Counted from the stretch's first letter, positions 4,250 through 29,250 are shown. The stretch: 33,003 nucleotides of DNA from Candidatus Latescibacterota bacterium (GCA_022821275.1 JAJEDY010000027.1:1-33003), one strand, 5' to 3'. Translations and numbers: made by a program. Notes: generated by a model not told the origin, from the sequence alone.

Positions 4250-4322
4250 AACGAATCTACGAATTTACGAATCGAAGCTCATAGTAATTTTGGGTGGTTG
4301 GGCAGGATTCGTCTATTCGTCC
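4250..4322. repeat. ATTCGTAAATTCGTAGATTCG-type repeat in the divergent spacer
   Basis: CGAATCTACGAATTTACGAAT at 4252-4272 consists of tandem CGAATNTA-like units, and GATTCGTCTATTCGTCCT at about 4305-4322 is its inverted counterpart. It lies between the divergent TAXI and TPR genes (spacer 4214-4423). It resembles a known style of short interspersed repeat; its function is unknown. Confidence 0.4.
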
Positions 4323-10931: not shown

Positions 10932-11030
10932 TCACTGATCATAACGCTCCTGGTACATTTGGCGCAGACGCTTCACCAGAATTTCATTGCCCTCCAAATC
11001 ATGCGTGAAATCCATTAACTTTATTCGCAT
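10932..11030 (-). CDS. Possible small protein or gene remnant, 32 residues
   Basis: A short minus-strand frame from an ATG at 11030 encodes MRIKLMDFTHDLEGNEILVK and a further RLRQMYQERYDQ. Its composition is protein-like, charged and amphipathic, but there is no clear Shine-Dalgarno site. It sits between the Na/Pi-type gene (40 nt before) and the ankyrin promoter (15 nt after). It could be a degraded 3' piece of an older gene or a chance frame. The rest of the spacer 10836-11069 holds only the promoter. Confidence 0.25.
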   Translation of the reverse strand: MRIKLMDFTHDLEGNEILVKRLRQMYQERYDQ

Positions 11031-11069
11031 TACCCAATCGACAAATCAAAACGCGGGTGCTACAGCATC

Positions 11070-12635
11070 TTACAGGTCTGCAAAATTGACCAATTTGTCC
11101 TTGAGGCGCCGGGAATAGGTGACAAAATTGGAGAGCGTACCCGCATCGCGTCTATCCGGCTGCACCAACAGCGGCAGCAAGTCGCGGTTGATCTCATCCA
11201 GCACCTCCTGAAGCTCTTCGGCTCTTTTTTCAATCTTGCCCCTGGAATCCTCCTCAAGCGACTTGCGGATATCTTCGAACAAAGCCAATGTGTGACCGGA
11301 AAGTGTTCTGACCATCAATAAAATGTCGCTCTCCAACTCCACATAGTACATATTCAATACTTTCTTGGTATTGAAAATATCGTCTATTGAATCGTATATC
11401 GAAAAAAGATAATCGAACTGAGTATGCAACTTGAGCAGGTCCCGGGATTCGCGTTTTTGGGTAACAGATACGACTGCTTGGGAAAAATAGCTCACGTACT
11501 CCTTCTCCAAAAAGTTCACGTATTCCAGGCGCTTGGCAGACGCATCAAAGATACCGCGGTAATTAGACTCGATACTCAGCGTAACGAGATTGTAGCTTTC
11601 CTGCAAAAAGGAGAGGAGATCAACGAGATTTTGGCGCAGTTCGGATTTGACTTTCTTAAAAGCGATTTGCTCGTCAAACGCGGGAATGGCCAATCGCTCG
11701 AAATCCATCTCGTCCTCCCCCAAAAGCATATCGATCAGTCGCGTAAAAGGCGTGATCAAAAGAACAAAAATCAGACTGGTCACCACATTAAATACGAGGT
11801 GAATATTGGCCAATGCGATTGCGGGGTCGGTGGAAAATTCATTTAGTCTATCGCCAAAAAGCAAAAGGATAGGTAAAAAAAGCAGCACACCGCCCACATT
11901 AAAGAAAAAATGAGAAAGCGCGGTCTTCCTGGCGGCAAAGTCCATGTGTACCATCGCGAGCAATGCCGTTGCCGTAGTGCCGATATTCGCCCCAATAATA
12001 ATGGGCACCGCGTTTTCAAGGCCCAATAACCCCTGTTGTGTAAACACAATTGCCAGACCTGTCGTCACCGAACTCGATTGCACGGCAGCCGTAAACAGAC
12101 AGCCCACCAGAATCGCGAGCAGTGGGTTTTGAGGATTTATGAGATATTGGGTCAGCGTGGGATCATTCTGGAGAGGACCGAGTGAAGAAGAGATCAGATT
12201 GAGAGCAAAAAAGACAAAACCAAAATAAAAAATAGACTTGCCGAAAATAGCAACTCTCGACCGAACAAAGGAAAGGGCAAATCCCAGAATGATAAATACG
12301 GGCGCAAACGCCGTGAGCTTAAATGCGACCAGTTGAGCCGTAATCGTGGTGCCGATATTCGCCCCAAAGATAATACCAACGCTACTTTTGAACGAGAGCA
12401 CGCCCGCATTGACCAGACCCACAGCAATCACCGAGGTCGCAGAACTCGACTGAATCACAGCGGTTACGAGCGCGCCTATGAGCACACCTATAACTGGAAT
12501 TTTGGTCGCCCTGGCGAGAAATCTTCGGAATTTTTCGCCAGAAACCTGTTCGATCTCCGCTGAAAAATTCTCCAATCCAAAGATAAAGAGAATAATCGCC
12601 GTCAGCCCGGCCATAATAACAGGGAGATATTCCAT
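11070..12635 (-). CDS. Na+/phosphate cotransporter family protein with PhoU-like tail
   Basis: A 521-residue member of the Na/Pi-cotransporter II-related family. It shows the inverted repeat of transport motifs: QSSSATS (residues 62-68) with GANIGTT (91-97), and again QSSSVTT (186-192) with GANIGTT (215-221), among about eight to nine membrane segments up to residue ~320. The C-terminal ~190 residues are long charged helices of PhoU type. Members import phosphate with sodium, and some bacterial ones control intracellular phosphate or nucleotide signalling rather than bulk uptake. AAGGAGGAG directly precedes the ATG. The ABC exporter gene lies 29 nt upstream on the same strand, so co-transcription is possible. 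Confidence 0.93.
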   Translation of the reverse strand: MEYLPVIMAGLTAIILFIFGLENFSAEIEQVSGEKFRRFLARATKIPVIGVLIGALVTAVIQSSSATSVIAVGLVNAGVLSFKSSVGIIFGANIGTTITAQLVAFKLTAFAPVFIILGFALSFVRSRVAIFGKSIFYFGFVFFALNLISSSLGPLQNDPTLTQYLINPQNPLLAILVGCLFTAAVQSSSVTTGLAIVFTQQGLLGLENAVPIIIGANIGTTATALLAMVHMDFAARKTALSHFFFNVGGVLLFLPILLLFGDRLNEFSTDPAIALANIHLVFNVVTSLIFVLLITPFTRLIDMLLGEDEMDFERLAIPAFDEQIAFKKVKSELRQNLVDLLSFLQESYNLVTLSIESNYRGIFDASAKRLEYVNFLEKEYVSYFSQAVVSVTQKRESRDLLKLHTQFDYLFSIYDSIDDIFNTKKVLNMYYVELESDILLMVRTLSGHTLALFEDIRKSLEEDSRGKIEKRAEELQEVLDEINRDLLPLLVQPDRRDAGTLSNFVTYSRRLKDKLVNFADL

Positions 12636-12664
12636 TGCTCCTCCTTAGCTCTGAAATCAAACCC

Positions 12665-14518
12665 CTATACGTGTTCTACTATCATCTCGTCCGGCTCGTG
12701 CAAGCGCGGTTCTGGTGCAACCTCATCAGGTCTGTGTGTCTGGTGTACATACATGCGCCAGTACACACCTTTTTGTGCAACCAACTCATCGTGTGAGCCT
12801 TGTTCTACAACATGCCCTTCGCGCATGACGAGAATCTGGTGTGCATTTTCCGCTGTACGCACCCGGTTCGTAACAATGATTATGGTTTGCCTTTCAAATG
12901 CCTTCTCAATATTTTCAAAAAGCAGTTCCTCAGCTTCTTCAGAAAGTGCGGAAACCGAGTCATCAAAGACAAAAATAGCCGGATCGCCCAAAAGTGTGCG
13001 TGCTATGGAAATGCGTTGCACAACATCTTGAGACAGCGATTCTCCACCTTTTCCAATCTGTGTATCATACCCCTTTGGCAGTTCGAGAATCGCATCGTGA
13101 ATGCCTGCAACCTGTGCAGCGTGTTCAATAACAGACCGTTCGATGTCTGGATCTCCAAAAGCGATGTTTTGCGCCACAGTTCCAGAAAATATGCGTGCTT
13201 CCTGACTCGCCATGCCAATCTGTTCGCGCAGGTCTTGAAGATTGAGCGTGCGTATATCCAGTCCATCGATTAACACCCGGCCTTCGGTGGGATCGTAAAA
13301 GCGCGATAACAGATTCACCACAGCGGTCTTGCCGCATCCACTCGGCCCTAACACAGCAAGTGTCTGGCCTGCGGGTAAATGAAAATTCACATCTCGCAAT
13401 GCAACAGGCCCACCCTCTATGTAGCGCAGCGATACATTCTCAAATGCAATATCCCCCCGTAAAGTATCTACAACCACGCCTCCGCCATCGTCTGACAGAT
13501 CATTTTCCATGTCGAGCACTTCATAGATGCGCTCCAAAATGATGCGGGTTGTCTGAAGCTGAACATTGGTATTTGTCAACGCAGTAATAGGTCCAAATAG
13601 CAGGGCGGTCATCTGATAGACAGCGAGGACTTCGCCGAGTTTCATAGCCCCGTCCTGCAACTGCAAAAAGCCATACATCAGTATGCCAGTTGCACCCAAT
13701 CCACTTATAATCATCAGGGTAACGCTCAGGCCGGTATTCAAAGCATTTTGTCGAAAACCGATCTGTAAATTCTGCCGCAGCCGCTTGAAGAAGCGCGTTG
13801 ATTCTGCTGCTTCTTGGGCATAGTATTTGATTGTCGCAACATAAGTCAACTTTTCTTCGATCAGCGATTGCAGTTCTGCATTGGCATTTCTCATCGCTTC
13901 TGTATTTTTCCGCAGGGGTCTCATAAATAGTATTGCGCCAGTCGCATAAAAAGGCAACACACCCAGTGCCATAAGGGTCATTGTCGGACTGATTTTCCAG
14001 AGCAAAACAAGCCCCACAATAAGAGTTATAAACTGAGTCGCCACATTGACCGGCAGATTCACGGTATTGGTCTGTGCGCTATTGGCATCATCCATCACGC
14101 GCACCATCAACTGCCCGGTTGAATATTTGTCAAAATACGAGAGCGGCAGATTGCTGAGTTTTGTCTGTACCTGTGACCGCAATCGGAACAGAACACGCTG
14201 TCCTGCAGACGATGTTAAATATCCAGAAATGCCACCAAATCCAGCCGTTCCAAACCGCAGTGATAGGCTAATCGCCAGAAATATCCACAGCCCTTCAAAT
14301 TTGTCCTCAGTACTCACAGGCGGCGCGCTCTGCTCTGATTGCACAACTGCGACATTGCCTTTTCTTGCGACCTGGAGAACATCATCAACCAGCCACTTGC
14401 CCAACAAACTGAATCCATAAGGCGCTTGATTAGCCGTAACAGTCAGCAAGAATGCCAGCAGCAGTTTACCCCAATGTCTCAGTACGTATTCTTTATAGAA
14501 CCGTCTAATCAGTTTCAC
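12665..14518 (-). CDS. ABC exporter half-transporter, subunit B (degenerate nucleotide-binding domain)
   Basis: A 617-residue transmembrane-NBD fusion of the type I exporter fold, with six membrane helices up to residue ~330. Its NBD has an intact Walker A GPSGCGKT (~389) and Q-loop (MASQEARIFSGT). The signature is LSQDV instead of LSGGQ (~494). Walker B ends VFDDSVSALS, so Asp replaces the catalytic Glu and the D-loop Asp is Ser (~514-521). The switch histidine is Asn (IIIVTNRV, ~548). It starts with GTG, overlapping the stop of the partner gene by 4 nt (GTGA), with GGAGGAGGGG just upstream. It is expected to form a heterodimer with the 14515-16284 product. The N-terminal half carries a longer insert (~60-75) between helices 1 and 2. 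Confidence 0.93.
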   Translation of the reverse strand: MKLIRRFYKEYVLRHWGKLLLAFLLTVTANQAPYGFSLLGKWLVDDVLQVARKGNVAVVQSEQSAPPVSTEDKFEGLWIFLAISLSLRFGTAGFGGISGYLTSSAGQRVLFRLRSQVQTKLSNLPLSYFDKYSTGQLMVRVMDDANSAQTNTVNLPVNVATQFITLIVGLVLLWKISPTMTLMALGVLPFYATGAILFMRPLRKNTEAMRNANAELQSLIEEKLTYVATIKYYAQEAAESTRFFKRLRQNLQIGFRQNALNTGLSVTLMIISGLGATGILMYGFLQLQDGAMKLGEVLAVYQMTALLFGPITALTNTNVQLQTTRIILERIYEVLDMENDLSDDGGGVVVDTLRGDIAFENVSLRYIEGGPVALRDVNFHLPAGQTLAVLGPSGCGKTAVVNLLSRFYDPTEGRVLIDGLDIRTLNLQDLREQIGMASQEARIFSGTVAQNIAFGDPDIERSVIEHAAQVAGIHDAILELPKGYDTQIGKGGESLSQDVVQRISIARTLLGDPAIFVFDDSVSALSEEAEELLFENIEKAFERQTIIIVTNRVRTAENAHQILVMREGHVVEQGSHDELVAQKGVYWRMYVHQTHRPDEVAPEPRLHEPDEMIVEHV

Positions 14519-16284
14519 GTCCCCTCCTCCACCCCGTACTGTAGCTCAAAAAGATTGCGATAATGTCCACCTTCAATCGCCATTAATTCGTCATGTGTCC
14601 CAGACTCTACTATTTTTCCATTTTCAATTACGGCAATGATGTCGGTTTCACGAGCTACGCCCAGGCGACGCGCAACCGTCAGAATTGTCGTGTTGGGCAA
14701 ATGCTCAAAAACAGCATTTAACACCTCGGTGGCACTTTCCGGATCTAAAGCCGCTGTGGCCTCGTCGAGAATCAGTATTTTGGGTTTTACAACCAGTGCC
14801 CGAGCAATACCCAGCCGCTGTCTCTGTCCCGCAGATAGTCGAATCCCACCTGGCCCTACAGGTGTTTCTATCCCCTCACTGAGTTGTTCTACAAGGCCAT
14901 CCAACCCAACAACCTTCAACGCATCGTGCAATGACGCCTCGCTTGTATCCGCTTTTCCATAGGTCAGGTTGTCTCGAATCGTACCTCTAAAAATCCCTGT
15001 GGAATCGCGCACCATAGGCACCTGTTGTTGATAATGCACCACATCGTATTCGCGCACATCGCGTCCATTGATCAAAAGGTGTCCATCTTCAGGATCAATC
15101 ATTCTGCGGATTGCACCGAGCAAAGATGTTTTGCCCGCAGCAGGCGGTCCAACAAGCGTCAAATTCTCTCCCGGATCAATATCCAGATTCACACCGTCAA
15201 GCACGACCTCCCCCTCTTCGGGATCGCTGTATTTGTATCCATTCATTTTTATGTTTACGTCAGCCTCGTCTTTTAATTTCGCGCCCGATGTCTTTTCGAT
15301 CTCCGGTGATTGTCTAAATAGTTCATTCACGCGCCCAATATTTACAAGAGATTGAGCCGCAGCTTGAAGCATCTTCACAAAACGAACCACGGGCCCCATC
15401 AACTGATTCGAATAGGCCGCAAATGCAATTACATCACCATATTGGATCTCACCCTTTAAAAACAAATACACCGATGCTACATAGATACATGTTGCACCGG
15501 TGCCGTTGATAAATGTCGTTGCCTGTGTAAATCCCATATTATAGACAATACCGCGGAGTGCTGTATCGCGACTTGCCCGCAGCCGATCTCGAAAGTGCAA
15601 TGTGGATTCGTCTTCCTGAGCGTAACTCACCACGAGGTCATGGCTTGCCAGTCTTTCCTGGAGCATACTGCTGACGTGATCCATGTGTCCACGCAGTTGC
15701 ACATTGTTGGATTGTATTCGCCCGGTGAACAGCTTGTAATTCAGATAAAAGATGGGCACAAGTGCCAAAGAAACCAGTGTCAATTTGCCACTGATCTCGA
15801 TCATAACAGCAATTGCAAATATTGCAGTAATCGTATCAATCACCAGATTGACCAAATGCCCTGTCACCAGATTTTGAACCGCGCCGACATCGCCCATCAG
15901 CCTTTGCATCAGGGAACCCGTGGGTGTTTTGTCGTGAAAACGCAGAGGCAGATGCAACAAGTGCTGATAGAGATCATTGCGGATACTGGCAACGATACTC
16001 CTGCCTACAATCGCAATGGCACGCGCATTCATGTACGTCATCCCTGCTCGCAGCAGTGTGATACCGAACAACGCACCGATCAATAATGGCAGCAATCCAT
16101 ACTGCCCATCTGAAGCCACATCATTGACCAGCCAGCGCATCACCAGCGGTGGCAACAACCCTATCACGGTCAGTACGCCAGCGAGAAGCAGTGCCCAAAT
16201 AAATTTCCATTTAAACGGTTTGATATACGGCCATAAATCCCTGATGCTTTTGATCAAACCCTCTTGTTTATTCTTTTTTGCCAT
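14515..16284 (-). CDS. ABC exporter half-transporter, subunit A
   Basis: A 589-residue TMD-NBD fusion. After six membrane helices (residues ~25-310), the NBD shows Walker A GPPAAGKT (~378), the canonical signature LSAGQRQR (~482) and canonical Walker B LILDEATAALD (~500). The segment usually containing the Q-loop glutamine reads QQVPMVRDSTGIFRGTI, with Asp at the aligned position. The switch histidine is replaced by Arg (ILTVARRLGVA, ~535). It forms a likely heterodimer with the overlapping downstream gene, exporting drugs, lipids or peptides; the substrate is unknown. The CNNM/CBS gene lies 35 nt upstream on the same strand, so the three genes may form an operon. Confidence 0.94.
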   Translation of the reverse strand: MAKKNKQEGLIKSIRDLWPYIKPFKWKFIWALLLAGVLTVIGLLPPLVMRWLVNDVASDGQYGLLPLLIGALFGITLLRAGMTYMNARAIAIVGRSIVASIRNDLYQHLLHLPLRFHDKTPTGSLMQRLMGDVGAVQNLVTGHLVNLVIDTITAIFAIAVMIEISGKLTLVSLALVPIFYLNYKLFTGRIQSNNVQLRGHMDHVSSMLQERLASHDLVVSYAQEDESTLHFRDRLRASRDTALRGIVYNMGFTQATTFINGTGATCIYVASVYLFLKGEIQYGDVIAFAAYSNQLMGPVVRFVKMLQAAAQSLVNIGRVNELFRQSPEIEKTSGAKLKDEADVNIKMNGYKYSDPEEGEVVLDGVNLDIDPGENLTLVGPPAAGKTSLLGAIRRMIDPEDGHLLINGRDVREYDVVHYQQQVPMVRDSTGIFRGTIRDNLTYGKADTSEASLHDALKVVGLDGLVEQLSEGIETPVGPGGIRLSAGQRQRLGIARALVVKPKILILDEATAALDPESATEVLNAVFEHLPNTTILTVARRLGVARETDIIAVIENGKIVESGTHDELMAIEGGHYRNLFELQYGVEEGT

Positions 16285-16319
16285 ATCACTCTTTGAGAGC
16301 CTTCTGCTGAATTTCTGCT

Positions 16320-17369
16320 CTACCCTACGATCTTCTTTTGACGTGCTTGCATCAATTCATCCCGTCTTTGTTTCGCCAATTCCCTCATATTTTCAACTTC
16401 ATCAAATTCATCGACGATTTCCTGACCCAGCATTGCTTCCAGCACATCTTCCAGAGTCACCACGCCAGCTACACCACCAAATTCACCCAATACCACAAAC
16501 ATATGCTGCTTGCGTTCGAGAAACTGTCGAAGCAATTGATCCAGGGGCAGATCATCTGCTACAAAATGTACTGGATGTATCAGATCAATTAATTTCTTAT
16601 CAAATTCATCCTGTCCAATGGCATTCAAAATCTCTCGCCGGTGTGCAATGCCTACAATGTTCTCAGCATCTTTATCGTAAATGGGCACGCGACCATGTAC
16701 CCAATTTCCCGCTTCGTCTCGAATATCTCCCACGGTAAGCTGGCCGCTCTTTGAGAATATAACAATACGGGGCGTCATCACTTCTGCAACTTTTTTTGAT
16801 TTTAACGCGATGATATTTGTGATGGCATCCACTTCGTCTTTACCGAGCACACCTGTTTGTCCACTCAACCGTATCATAACCTGGAGTTCATCTTCTGATA
16901 TACGTTGCTCCTGATCGCGCTTCGCAATCAGTCTTGTAAGCTTGCGTGTAAACCAGACCAATGGCGACATCAATGTCACCAGCAATTGTAATGGTCTTGC
17001 AATAAATTTCGACAAGGGGCGGCTATAGACAACGCCCGCTGTCTTGGGAAACACTTCGGAAAACATTAAAATCAGCAGCGTAAATACAGCCGAAAAATAG
17101 ACAACATTCGATGGACTAAATACTTTTAGAGCTACAGCACCGGCTACTGCAGCACCTGCTGTATTGGCAATCGTATTGAGAGAAAGAATCGCTGCAATAG
17201 GGCGGTCAACCTCTTTGCGTAGCCCCTGTAAGATCCTGCCCGATGCACGTCCTTCCTGCGCCAGAGATTCGATATGGCTAATAGGTACAGAGTATAAAAT
17301 TGCCTCAAACAGTGAACACATCGCCGATGTGCCTACAACAACCATTACAATGATGATCAATTCAATCAT
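16320..17369 (-). CDS. CNNM (DUF21)-CBS-pair membrane protein, HlyC/CorC-like
   Basis: A 349-residue protein read from the ATG at 17369; the frame continues upstream to a TTG, but the ATG has GAGGGT before it and gives the usual N-terminus of the family. Residues 1-~140 are the CNNM/DUF21 membrane domain (SLFEAILYSVP, LNTIANTAGAAVAGAVA, LILMFSEVFPKTAGV). Residues ~185-310 are a CBS pair (KVAEVMTPR, GRVPIYDKDAENIVGI, HMFVVLGEFGGVAGVVTLED). The C-terminal CorC domain is missing, replaced by a charged tail. CNNM-CBS proteins are linked to Mg2+ and other divalent cation transport, with nucleotide sensing by the CBS domains. Confidence 0.91.
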   Translation of the reverse strand: MIELIIIVMVVVGTSAMCSLFEAILYSVPISHIESLAQEGRASGRILQGLRKEVDRPIAAILSLNTIANTAGAAVAGAVALKVFSPSNVVYFSAVFTLLILMFSEVFPKTAGVVYSRPLSKFIARPLQLLVTLMSPLVWFTRKLTRLIAKRDQEQRISEDELQVMIRLSGQTGVLGKDEVDAITNIIALKSKKVAEVMTPRIVIFSKSGQLTVGDIRDEAGNWVHGRVPIYDKDAENIVGIAHRREILNAIGQDEFDKKLIDLIHPVHFVADDLPLDQLLRQFLERKQHMFVVLGEFGGVAGVVTLEDVLEAMLGQEIVDEFDEVENMRELAKQRRDELMQARQKKIVG

Positions 17370-17470
17370 AGGACCCTCGTTATCTAATTTAATACCGTAT
17401 TCCAACCCAATCTCTACATCTGAACCTGGCGCAAGTTATCATTATCGCATAATGATTTCAACCTTTTTTC

Positions 17471-19843
17471 TTATTCATATCGCAATACATCGATGGGATT
17501 GGCACGCGCTGTTTTCCAGGTGAGGCATCCTGCTGTCAAAACAGCTATAACAAGCAGGACAGCTATACTCAAAAGAAACGGCCAAACCACGAGATCGATC
17601 TGATAGGCAAAATTCTGCAACCAATCCTCCATCAAAAAATATCCAACCGGACACGCAATCGTGCTGGCGAAGACAGCGAGCCAGGCAAAGTCTCGAATAA
17701 TTAGAACCATGAGATGGGATGCCGAAGCACCCAGCACCTTGCGAATACCAATTTCGCGGGTGCGCTGTTCAGCGGCAAAAGCCGCCAGACCTACCAGACC
17801 CAGACAGGCCAGTACAATGGCGACAACTGCGGACCGCGTAAAAATGCGCCCATGGCGTTGTTCTCGTCGGTATTTGGAATCGATATAATCATCGATAAAA
17901 AAGTACTCAAAAGGCCGCGTCGGGATAAAATGCGTCCAGGTCTCTTCAACAAAAGCCATCGTCTCCCGAACACGGTCGGGTCTAATCTTGAGATGTAAAT
18001 ACTTCAAACCCGCACCCGCCGCAGACAGAACCACAGGACCCAGAGGCTCTCTGAGATAACGCACGTGAAAATCTCCCATCACGCCAATAACCTGCGCGGG
18101 CCTCTCTCCAATCATCAGCGTATGCCCCAAAGGATTCGCCCAACCGAACCGCTTTACAGCAGTCTCATTTATCACCACCTGCATCGCGCCCGCGTTCTCT
18201 GTCGCCTGCTCGGCATAAGTCTGCGAAAAACTTCGACCCGCGAGCATCGGAATATTGTAACAGGTGAGAAAATTCTCATTTGCCCGAAAAACGCGCACTT
18301 CCACCTCTCGATCCGGCCTTTCAATATCCGACGCAAAACGCCGACTCGGCCAACTGTGTCCGGGCAGATCCAGACTCGTACCCGCAGCGACAATATGGGG
18401 ATGCTGAAGAAATCGCTGTTTGACCGCGTTATACTGACTATTTAAGTGGATTTGCTCCGCATCCGGACCAAAAATTTTGACCACGACAATCTGATCGCGA
18501 TCAAATCCCAAATATTTGCCATGAACCAGATCCATCTGCTGATACACCACGAGCGTAGATGCAATGAGAATAGCAGACACAGCAAATTGCACCACCACAA
18601 GTCCCTTGCGTAGCCAGAGATCCCTTGGAAGCCTGTTGCGCAACCCCTTCAGAACATCAACGGGCTGCTGCGCTGAAAGATAAAAAGCGGGATAACTTCC
18701 CGAAATCAGCGCAGTAATCAGCGCAATACACACAATCCACAAAACATGATCAGAAATATTAAAAACAAGCGGCTGCCCCATCAGACCTGAAAACTGGGGC
18801 AAAAGCAACACCGTCAAACCAAAAGACACGGGCAGCGCAACCCCGGTAAACAACACAGACTCGCACAAAAACTGCCCTACAATATGCTGCCGCCGTGCCC
18901 CCACAACCTTGCGCAGACCAATTTCGCGGGCGCGAATAGCCGACCGCGCAGTAGCCAGATTCATAAAATTGATACAGGCAATGAGCAAAATACCCAGACC
19001 CAGAACAGACAGGGGATAGAGATCGCGGACATCCCGATACGGCATCCCCCCATCCCCCGTAAAACCCTCCAGATCAATCCTGGAATACAGATGGATGCGC
19101 GGCAGAGCCTGGAGATGGAAAGTCGCCTCCGACTCAGAGGGAAAGCGAGTTGCAAGCGCGCGCTCGAGAGCCGCAACATCGGCATCGGGACGCAAACGGA
19201 TGTAAATCGGCGCAGCGCGTATAGCCCAGTTATCGGACGCAAAAAAAGTCACACTATCAAACTCCAACCGCGTATTGGTCGGGCGGTCTTTCATCACAGC
19301 AACAACCGTGAACACCTGCTGATAGGTCTCGCGCTGCACCTCAACGGTGCGACCGATGGGATCTGCATTACCGTAGAGTTTGCGGGCAACGCCCTGCGTT
19401 AAAACAACAGACGCATCTCGGCGTTTGAGCGCGGCAGCATCTCCCCGAATAATATCCAGACCAAAGAAATCCACAACATCTCCATCAACCGGACAAAGGC
19501 GCTGCTGAAACAATCGGTCCTCCACGCGAAACCAGGACGTAATGCGGCGGAACTGAACAACAGCCTCGACCTCGGGATATTCATCGCGCAAATGCACGGC
19601 AATCTCTGACGGAAGAGCGCCGCGCCATTCGACTTGCCCCCGCGCGTTTAGATCCCTCTTCATAATCCGATAAACCCGGTCAGCATGGGGGCGAAAGGCG
19701 TCGTAGCTCATCTCGTAGCGGATAGAAAGCATAATGAGCACAGCACACGTCAATCCGATGGCGAGACTACTCAGACTGATAAACGCATAGAACTTGTAAC
19801 GCATCGCGTTGCGAATCGCAACTGTCAGAAAATTGTAGAACAT
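17471..19843 (-). CDS. MacB/FtsX-type ABC transporter permease, long two-module form
   Basis: A 790-residue protein of the MacB-type (FtsX-like) permease family. It has an N-terminal helix (AFISLSSLAIGLTCAVLIML), a periplasmic MacB_PCD-like domain (~40-270) and a block of membrane helices (LSVLGLGILLIACINFMNLA, residues ~270-400). A second helix with an external domain follows at ~420-660, and three C-terminal helices end in ANPIDVLRYE. The motif ATARSAIRAREIGLRKVVGA and its second copy QRTREIGIRKVLGASASHL are family hallmarks. No ATPase gene is adjacent, so it must use a partner encoded elsewhere. Its start is 6 nt after the stop of the upstream aldo/keto-reductase-like gene. It is a paralogue of 26803-29250. 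Confidence 0.92.
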   Translation of the reverse strand: MFYNFLTVAIRNAMRYKFYAFISLSSLAIGLTCAVLIMLSIRYEMSYDAFRPHADRVYRIMKRDLNARGQVEWRGALPSEIAVHLRDEYPEVEAVVQFRRITSWFRVEDRLFQQRLCPVDGDVVDFFGLDIIRGDAAALKRRDASVVLTQGVARKLYGNADPIGRTVEVQRETYQQVFTVVAVMKDRPTNTRLEFDSVTFFASDNWAIRAAPIYIRLRPDADVAALERALATRFPSESEATFHLQALPRIHLYSRIDLEGFTGDGGMPYRDVRDLYPLSVLGLGILLIACINFMNLATARSAIRAREIGLRKVVGARRQHIVGQFLCESVLFTGVALPVSFGLTVLLLPQFSGLMGQPLVFNISDHVLWIVCIALITALISGSYPAFYLSAQQPVDVLKGLRNRLPRDLWLRKGLVVVQFAVSAILIASTLVVYQQMDLVHGKYLGFDRDQIVVVKIFGPDAEQIHLNSQYNAVKQRFLQHPHIVAAGTSLDLPGHSWPSRRFASDIERPDREVEVRVFRANENFLTCYNIPMLAGRSFSQTYAEQATENAGAMQVVINETAVKRFGWANPLGHTLMIGERPAQVIGVMGDFHVRYLREPLGPVVLSAAGAGLKYLHLKIRPDRVRETMAFVEETWTHFIPTRPFEYFFIDDYIDSKYRREQRHGRIFTRSAVVAIVLACLGLVGLAAFAAEQRTREIGIRKVLGASASHLMVLIIRDFAWLAVFASTIACPVGYFLMEDWLQNFAYQIDLVVWPFLLSIAVLLVIAVLTAGCLTWKTARANPIDVLRYE

Positions 19844-26802: not shown

Positions 26803-29250
26803 CTATTCATGCCGCAGAGCTTCCACCGGATTGGACACAGCCGCGCGAAGCGCGTGAAAACTCACAGTAAACAACGCAATCGCCAATGCGACCGCACCAC
26901 TCAAAACAAATATCCACCACGAAAGATCCGTGCGATATTCAAAGCCGTCCAGCCAACTTCGCATCGCAAAATACGCAACTGGCCAGGCAAACAAATTCGC
27001 AACCAAAACCATAATCGCAAATGTCCTGGAAATTAGCATCACAATATTTGACACACTCGCACCCAACACCTTTCGCACCCCAATCTCTTTCACACGCTGC
27101 TCAACCGTAAATGCCGCAAGGCCAAACAGACCCATACACGCGAGCAAAATCGCCATCCCCGAAGAGAGCAATGTAAGCGCTTGCGCCCGTTGTTCTGCAT
27201 AGTACATGAATTCAAATTGCTGATCCCACATCAGATAGTCAAAAGGCTGATCTGCAGGCGCGAAACGCTTCCAGGTCTCTTCAAAAAAGGCGAGCGTCTC
27301 TTCCATGCCTTCGGCTTTGACGCGCGCGCCCAGATTGTAAAATTGCTGGTGCCGAAGCGTCAGCGCGACAGGACCAATTTTTTCGTGCAACGGACTATAG
27401 TGAAAGTCCCGTACAACGCCAATCACCGTCCCCTTCCGATTTCTCACCCGATCAACCCACTCAAAAGACTTGCCAATAGGATCATCCCAACCGAGCCGAG
27501 CCACCGCCGTTTCATTAATAATAAATGCTTTCGACGTATCTGTGGGAAATGCAATCGGATCAAATTTTCGCCCTTCTACCAGCCCAATTTGAAACACATC
27601 GAGATAATCTTCATCGACCTCCAGAAGCGGCATGCGCCAGTCTGTGCCCTCGTGCCCCTCTGCCCGAATGGTTCGGGTAATACCCCCACCCCATCCAATC
27701 CACCAGCGATACGCCGTTACCTCAAGCACATTCGGATGGGCGCGAAAAGCCTCCTTCACCGTGGCATAACGGGCGGCGAGCTTTTGCTCCGGATCCGATT
27801 TTGTCTCCTGATCCAACACAAATATGGGTATGAGCACCATCTGCTCCATATTAAAACCCAGATTCTTGTTTTTCATATAATCGAGTTGCTGATAGATCAC
27901 CCCCGTACTCGCGATCAGAATAATTGAAATTGCAAACTGCACCACCACCAACCCCTTTCGAATCCACTGCCCCCGAGAACCTGTGCGAAACGCCCCTTTT
28001 AACGTCTCTGTGGGTTCATACGCCGAAAGAAAAAATGCGGGATAAACGCCAGCCAACAATCCGACGAATACGGCAATACCGAGCAAAGCAATAGCGAACA
28101 AAGGATCGCTCGACAAATTCAACTCAATCTGCTTAAAGAAAAAAGCATTAAACTCGGGAAGCACGAACTTAACAGCAACAAGCGCGAGAACAAGCGCGAC
28201 CAATGAAGTGAGAACAGACTCGCCCAAAAACTGACTCATCAGTTGTGAGCGATACGCTCCCGACACCTTTCGCAAGCCCACCTCGTGCGCCCTGCGAGCC
28301 GATTGCGCCGTCGTCAAATTTGTAAAATTGATACATCCAATCGCAAGCACCAGAACCGCAATAGCCCCAAATTGATAAACGCGATCTATATCGCCGTACC
28401 AATCCAGGTTGTAGTCCTGCCTCGAATAGAGATAAATGCGATTGAGAGGCTGGAGATGATACGCATTTGTGCGTGCGATCTCTGCACCCATATAGCGATC
28501 GATCAATTCGGGAAATTTTGCGGACAGCGCCTTTGGGTCCGCCCCTTCTCGTAGCAGAAAATACGTATTGACGGGACGCCAACCATCGGTTGGTATCCAA
28601 TCTTCCCAGGCGTATTTCGCGCCTGGGGACGTAAATCCGCCTGTTGAGAGATAATCGATTTCACCGTAGCCGAGTGTAGAATTGCGAGGCACATCTTTTA
28701 ATATTGCCGTGATGGTGCGCTCGCCTCCGTGGTGATTGCTCTCAGCGGTGATGGTCTTCCCAATCGGATCTTCGTCTCCAAATAACCGCTTTGCCGCCGA
28801 CTCTGTTATGGCAATAGCGTTCGGATTGGGAAATGCGGTTTCGAGATTGCCGCGCACAAATGGAAAATCGAAAATTTCAAACAACTCGGGATCGGCAACA
28901 CAGACACCCATCTCAAACTTTTTTTCATCCAAACGCACATCTACGGACGACCACGTTATTACGCGCACGGCTTTTTCCACCTCGGGAAAATCCCGCGCAA
29001 GTGCCCGCGCCAGCGCACCCGACGTAAATGGCAAATAATCCGATTGCCCCCCAGATCGGGTCTCCCGCATCACCCGATAGACCCGATCTCCTTTTGTATG
29101 CCAACTGTCAAAACTCAACTCATCCTGAATATAGAGCACGATCAAAAAACATGTGCCCAGACCAATGGCAAGCCCCAGAATATTGATCGCACTAAAGGTC
29201 TTTTGCCGATTGAGATTTCTCAGCGCTATAACCAGATAATTTCTAAACAC
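26803..29250 (-). CDS. MacB/FtsX-type ABC transporter permease, long two-module form (second copy)
   Basis: An 815-residue paralogue of the 17471-19843 permease with the same architecture. It has an N-terminal helix (FSAINILGLAIGLGTCFLIV), a periplasmic MacB_PCD-like domain, a membrane block starting ~290 (YQFGAIAVLVLAIGCINFTN), a second module from ~415 and C-terminal helices ending SNPVEALRHE. Shared motifs are SARRAHEVGLRKVSGAYRSQ, RKGLVVVQFAISIILIASTG and EIGVRKVLGASVSNI. The start is a GTG with GGGAGG 9 nt upstream. No ATPase gene is nearby. It is flanked by two copies of a ~75-bp direct repeat, which suggests that the region was rearranged. Confidence 0.92.
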   Translation of the reverse strand: MFRNYLVIALRNLNRQKTFSAINILGLAIGLGTCFLIVLYIQDELSFDSWHTKGDRVYRVMRETRSGGQSDYLPFTSGALARALARDFPEVEKAVRVITWSSVDVRLDEKKFEMGVCVADPELFEIFDFPFVRGNLETAFPNPNAIAITESAAKRLFGDEDPIGKTITAESNHHGGERTITAILKDVPRNSTLGYGEIDYLSTGGFTSPGAKYAWEDWIPTDGWRPVNTYFLLREGADPKALSAKFPELIDRYMGAEIARTNAYHLQPLNRIYLYSRQDYNLDWYGDIDRVYQFGAIAVLVLAIGCINFTNLTTAQSARRAHEVGLRKVSGAYRSQLMSQFLGESVLTSLVALVLALVAVKFVLPEFNAFFFKQIELNLSSDPLFAIALLGIAVFVGLLAGVYPAFFLSAYEPTETLKGAFRTGSRGQWIRKGLVVVQFAISIILIASTGVIYQQLDYMKNKNLGFNMEQMVLIPIFVLDQETKSDPEQKLAARYATVKEAFRAHPNVLEVTAYRWWIGWGGGITRTIRAEGHEGTDWRMPLLEVDEDYLDVFQIGLVEGRKFDPIAFPTDTSKAFIINETAVARLGWDDPIGKSFEWVDRVRNRKGTVIGVVRDFHYSPLHEKIGPVALTLRHQQFYNLGARVKAEGMEETLAFFEETWKRFAPADQPFDYLMWDQQFEFMYYAEQRAQALTLLSSGMAILLACMGLFGLAAFTVEQRVKEIGVRKVLGASVSNIVMLISRTFAIMVLVANLFAWPVAYFAMRSWLDGFEYRTDLSWWIFVLSGAVALAIALFTVSFHALRAAVSNPVEALRHE

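Follow-up and report, generated by a model that had tools for sequence, protein, structure and literature searches.

A Latescibacterota heterodimeric ABC exporter-fold protein that appears to have lost its consensus ATP site and is retained by selection

Can a heterodimeric ABC exporter lose its one consensus ATP site and still be kept by selection? The question is raised by two adjacent genes in a stretch of 33,003 nucleotides of DNA (GCA_022821275.1, JAJEDY010000027.1:1-33003; here called the window) from a Candidatus Latescibacterota bacterium, which is probably sponge-associated, to judge from the sponge-associated Latescibacterota described in the literature (PMC12993501). Heterodimers with one degenerate ATP site are known, and the functional origin of the degenerate pattern has been called enigmatic in a review (PMC7756269). 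What appears to be new here is that a natural pair has lost its former consensus site. The locus thus touches on the purpose of degenerate sites and on the need for hydrolysis in exporter-fold ABC proteins, and a natural heterodimer with no remaining consensus site, held under purifying selection, would offer a ready-made test of which functions depend on hydrolysis.

The two genes, termed A and B, are co-directional on the minus strand, their open reading frames overlap by 4 bp, and both products match PF00664 and PF00005 above the Pfam cut-off. The genes and their motifs are located as follows.

14515..16284, minus strand: subunit A half-transporter, 589 amino acids, ABC_membrane and ABC_tran domains
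15127..15150, minus strand: A Walker A, GPPAAGKT, Lys385 retained
14989..15021, minus strand: A Q-loop, VPMVRDSTGIF, Asp427 in place of Gln (codon 15004-15006)
14824..14838, minus strand: A signature, LSAGQ, residues 483-487, the signature of the ancestrally degenerate site
14743..14778, minus strand: A Walker B and D-loop, ILILDEATAALD (ILDEATAALD), Glu508 and Asp514 retained
14662..14676, minus strand: A switch, VARRL, Arg539 in place of His (codon 14668-14670)
12665..14518, minus strand: subunit B half-transporter, 617 amino acids, GTG start, ABC_membrane and ABC_tran domains
13325..13348, minus strand: B Walker A, GPSGCGKT, Lys397 retained
13187..13216, minus strand: B Q-loop, GMASQEARIF, Gln439 retained
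13022..13036, minus strand: B signature, LSQDV, residues 495-499, in place of LSGGQ
12941..12976, minus strand: B Walker B and D-loop, IFVFDDSVSALS (VFDDSVSALS), Asp520 inherited, D-loop Asp replaced by Ser526
12860..12874, minus strand: B switch, VTNRV, His replaced by Asn551

Every one of these residues is present in the DNA, and the motifs of both subunits keep the same register in alignments with P-gp/ABCB4 chains and with the exporter NBDs of the same genome and phylum. The motif alignments of A and B show no shifted His or Glu that could replace a missing switch or catalytic residue; in B the closest His is nine residues further downstream, where the consensus reads NAD. The substitutions that a preliminary description of this DNA had listed for B (Asp520, Ser526, Asn551 and LSQDV) and for the Q-loop and switch of A (Asp427 and Arg539) are thus borne out. 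Its statement that both the Walker B and the signature of A are canonical holds for the Walker B, with Glu508, but not strictly for the signature, as LSAGQ occupies an ancestrally degenerate position. The affected positions (Gln427, His539, Gly498, Asp526 and His551) are 96-100% conserved across 134 other exporter NBD rows, and the substitutions are therefore not put down to chance. Over the 36 columns conserved to at least 90% in a set of 70 non-redundant NBDs, A deviates at 8 and B at 6; the median is 1.

How unusual this is can be seen from other asymmetric pairs. A complete consensus site comprises Gln, Glu and His of one subunit together with LSGGQ and the D-loop Asp of the other, and it is kept at all 31 other pair loci examined, once with FSGGQ. 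This survey, which spans few phyla, covers 24 pairs of the phylum (22 genomes), four loci of the same genome (C24, C61, C77 and C53), E. coli mdlAB and the pairs of Latilactobacillus and Rhizobium. A/B has no such site. Only one of the subunits has Asp at the Walker B Glu position (Asp520 in B; A has Glu508), and each composite site contains at least one defective element, as originally claimed: Asp427 and Arg539 of A with LSQDV and Ser526 of B in one, and Asp520 and Asn551 of B in the other. No natural exporter with both sites degenerate was found in the open-access literature.

The placement of A and B was examined in two trees, one with a larger sequence set. Among exporters, A falls in an A-like clade (support 100/99) and B in a B-like clade (100/100) of the phylum's ordinary heterodimers, and these clades unite in a group that is itself supported (100/99). 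In these ordinary pairs (24 loci, 22 other genomes), the product of gene 1 has Gln, Glu and His with LSVGE, LSVGQ or LSLGE as its signature; that of gene 2 combines the Asp Walker B with LSGGQ and the D-loop Asp. The order A-then-B is also that of the phylum's ordinary pairs, and is reversed in E. coli mdlAB and in the Rhizobium and Latilactobacillus pairs. By tree placement and motif content, A and B are read as descendants of the phylum's ordinary asymmetric heterodimeric exporter. Asp520 of B and LSAGQ of A are likewise read as the inherited degenerate site, because the ordinary pairs of the clade show both an Asp Walker B and a non-LSGGQ signature.

Against this background five changes are derived: Gln to Asp and His to Arg in A, and LSGGQ to LSQDV, D-loop Asp to Ser and His to Asn in B. 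Four of the five lie in the former consensus site, which is formed by the Walker motifs of A with the signature and D-loop of B; the inherited degenerate site has kept Asp for Glu and has lost its switch His too (Asn551). A cis layout as the ancestral design is ruled out, since the ordinary pairs reveal which features were inherited. The layout does differ from that of TAP and TM287/288, as first proposed, but it is not simply degeneracy in cis: its novelty is that the former consensus site is gone. The stem branches are long (2.0 changes per site for A and 1.9 for B), whereas copies of A within the genus have end branches of at most 0.04, a pattern that we read as a burst of change followed by constraint.

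Of ten other congeneric genomes, three (G002, G005 and G010) proved to have orthologues of the pair; the contig of G010 stops at the start of B, leaving A out of view there. A scan of GTDB contigs returned records of these same congeneric genomes only, no close relatives of A or B turned up beyond the genus in genomes of the class or phylum, and there were no plasmid matches at E 1e-80. The dN/dS ratio ranges from 0.045 to 0.13 in A and from 0.07 to 0.10 in B, with the ordinary pair of the same genomes at 0.04-0.11; the TMDs lie at 0.03-0.09. Codons of the motifs vary synonymously while the residues stay unchanged (Arg539, for example, is CGT or CGG), and the substitutions are fixed across 3-4 congeneric genomes. 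Both subunits, TMDs included, are therefore judged from these ratios to be under strong purifying selection.

These data bear on two readings that would deprive the substitutions of interest. It is very improbable that A/B is decaying, with exporter function lost and the substitutions left as neutral relics. The long stem branches of both subunits and the many near-invariant columns from which A departs are what decay might produce, but the reading is largely refuted by the lack of any frameshift or stop in up to four genomes, by dN/dS of 0.05-0.13, the same as in the ordinary pair, and by altered residues that are constant among orthologues despite synonymous change; intact frames and dN/dS rule out a pseudogene. 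Still more remote is an assembly or sequencing artefact, or a misalignment of motifs. The related records are metagenome-assembled genomes, yet A and B keep the same residues across independent assemblies that are 96-98% identical and differ at synonymous sites, which refutes an artefact, and alignment with solved exporters places the motifs unambiguously, which disposes of misalignment. Fixed substitutions and dN/dS like that of an ordinary pair together make decay or sequencing error unlikely.

A and B are part of a larger unit that is present in some congeners and missing from others.

~10940..17445, no strand assigned: present/absent island of 6.5 kb with four genes (CNNM, A, B and Na/Pi)
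16320..17405, minus strand: CNNM and CBS domain protein, first island gene
11070..12635, minus strand: Na/Pi cotransporter family protein, last island gene

The island genes are separated by gaps of at most 35 bp or overlap. DNA comparison of congeners shows the island to be missing as a block in G001 (where ~9 bp stand in its place), G003, G006 and G007, while G004 has a Rieske, cytochrome b and multihaem cytochrome (bc-type) cluster (L113) at the same site. Up to four genomes carry the island, which is split between contigs in G010, and CNNM orthologues at 97-98% identity occur in island carriers only. Since it comes and goes as a block, the island amounts to an accessory unit of four genes that occupies a variable site. 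Its genes have a GC content of 0.445-0.483 versus 0.51-0.56 in the nearest flanking genes, and no direct repeats of at least 10 bases were found at its ends. The closest relatives of the Na/Pi protein (L136, L137, L138 and L139; 78-85% identity) are patchily distributed in other genera of the class, in a different neighbourhood with no ABC pair beside them; CNNM lies 1-5 kb from two of these relatives. A comparison of the window with G002 gives dS values of 0.04 (Na/Pi), 0.12 (B) and 0.16 (A) within the island, and of 0.26-0.30 in two genes beyond its Na/Pi end; the lower values in the island hint at its transfer or recombination within the genus. A reading of the locus as a defence system was dropped, as only generic ATPase-domain matches to PADLOC models were obtained.

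Some further features of the window and genome may be recorded here. About 70 bp before or at the start of a TPR gene (4250-4321, ACGAATCTACGAATTTACGAATC...) appear to be a dispersed repeat, which recurs at many places in congeneric genomes at 80-91% identity. FtsX/MacB-type permeases at 17471-19843 and 26803-29250 have no adjacent ATPase gene; the former matches the ADOP duplicated-permease family best, and short parts of it recur across congeneric genomes. Another exporter of the same genome (L084, G000:C16:4655-5425) has an in-frame TAG within its transmembrane domain.

What, then, might A/B do? Our leading explanation, held tentatively and at somewhat less than an even chance, is that an exporter-fold heterodimer has lost its sole catalytic site, binds ATP, hydrolyses little or none of it, and serves as a gated facilitator or as a regulator of a partner. 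On this view A/B, with the fold of a heterodimeric type IV ABC exporter, derives from the phylum's ordinary asymmetric exporter and has since lost the catalytic site. Both Walker A lysines are intact (K385 in A, K397 in B), which suggests that nucleotide is bound, and ATP could still draw the NBDs together. Productive hydrolysis would be very slow or absent, so that A/B would not pump uphill in the usual manner. Nucleotide binding might open and close a path across the membrane, giving a facilitator or valve of the TAP1 D674A kind; alternatively, A/B may set the conformation of a partner transporter of the island, Na/Pi or CNNM, to which its link is positional. In TAP1 D674A, ATPase activity is abolished with normal binding of nucleotide (ATP, ADP) and peptide, and the transporter becomes a nucleotide-gated, bidirectional passive facilitator (PMC4242082). 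Mutation of the consensus-site D-loop Asp in TM287/288 strongly reduces ATPase activity (PMC7544095).

The preliminary description had suggested slow, regulated or altered hydrolysis. Slow or regulated hydrolysis is possible, since Glu508 of A and both Walker A motifs are intact and would allow some turnover. Little or no productive hydrolysis, coupled to nucleotide gating, is nonetheless the stronger prediction, because Ser526 of B stands at the position of TAP1 Asp674. Asp498 of B and Arg539 of A belong to one site, where both would be expected to lie close to the gamma-phosphate, and the two residues might pair; a structure prediction of the B monomer made without an alignment reached a pLDDT of 36 and was not used.

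Whether A/B is still an active exporter, with slow hydrolysis either at the site of A (Walker A, Glu508) or at that of B (Asp520 together with LSAGQ of A), and with substitutions such as Arg539/Asp498 compensating for one another in low-turnover export, is doubtful, yet this is a serious rival, because several substitutions in an NBS, taken together, can bring back function that each abolishes on its own (PMC7544095, PMC6703430): an ABCB1 quadruple mutant retains low, drug-stimulated ATPase activity (PMC7544095), and severe changes in LptB cosuppress (PMC6703430). Also in favour of export are the retention of both Walker A lysines and, in A, of Glu508 and LSAGQ, the constraint on TMD and NBD alike, and the slow hydrolysis of sites with Asp for Glu (PMC7756269). 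The reading sits poorly with four altered elements in the former consensus site, including the D-loop position whose loss stops the ATPase of TAP, and none of the 31 other pairs has any such change on its consensus site. A non-transporting, SUR-like regulator is unlikely. Its NBDs would sense ATP/ADP and control the Na/Pi or CNNM protein of the island, or brake the ordinary exporter by subunit pairing; exporter-fold proteins that regulate ion channels have a precedent in SUR (PMC7756269), and the four genes, at most 35 bp apart or overlapping, are gained and lost together. The support is, however, one of co-location, and relatives of Na/Pi and CNNM occur together elsewhere with no ABC pair. 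We return to loss of catalysis with nucleotide gating. Put more generally, and again as a tentative view that falls short of an even chance, A/B would be a natural heterodimer devoid of a consensus ATP site and kept by selection, in which nucleotide binding alone gates a passive pathway or regulates an island transporter.

Among known systems, TM287/288, BmrCD, LmrCD, EfrCD, TmrAB and E. coli MdlAB likewise consist of two adjacent half-transporters, each a TMD with an NBD, and exporters of the TM287/288 type share the asymmetric NBDs with an inherited Asp Walker B in one subunit. The pairs of this type that were inspected, MdlAB included, keep the consensus site, whereas A/B has lost its Gln, His, signature glycines and D-loop Asp. 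Pdr5 and other fungal PDR pumps resemble A/B in that many motifs are altered at once (Walker A, Walker B, H-loop and signature), but in Pdr5 the changes are gathered in NBS1 (PMC7756269), while A/B is altered in the site that faces the inherited degenerate one and has kept Walker A. CFTR (ABCC7) and SUR1/2 (ABCC8/9) use the exporter fold as a gated channel or nucleotide sensor and not as a pump, which is akin to the role proposed here. They retain one consensus site within a single ABCC polypeptide with extra regulatory domains; in A/B these hallmarks (single chain, TMD0 or R domain) are absent, the half-transporters of 589 and 617 amino acids having zero extra Pfam domains. A further parallel is TAP. 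B resembles TAP1 in its Asp Walker B and altered switch His, and A resembles TAP2 in its Glu Walker B and altered signature. Wild-type TAP, unlike A/B, has an intact site II. In A/B the D-loop Asp has been lost from the subunit with the Asp Walker B (Ser526 of B, at the D674 position), as in TAP1 D674A; that mutant is an engineered single change, whereas the D-loop change of A/B is natural and is accompanied by changes in signature, switch and Q-loop. A/B may be the natural equivalent of that engineered facilitator, TAP1 D674A.
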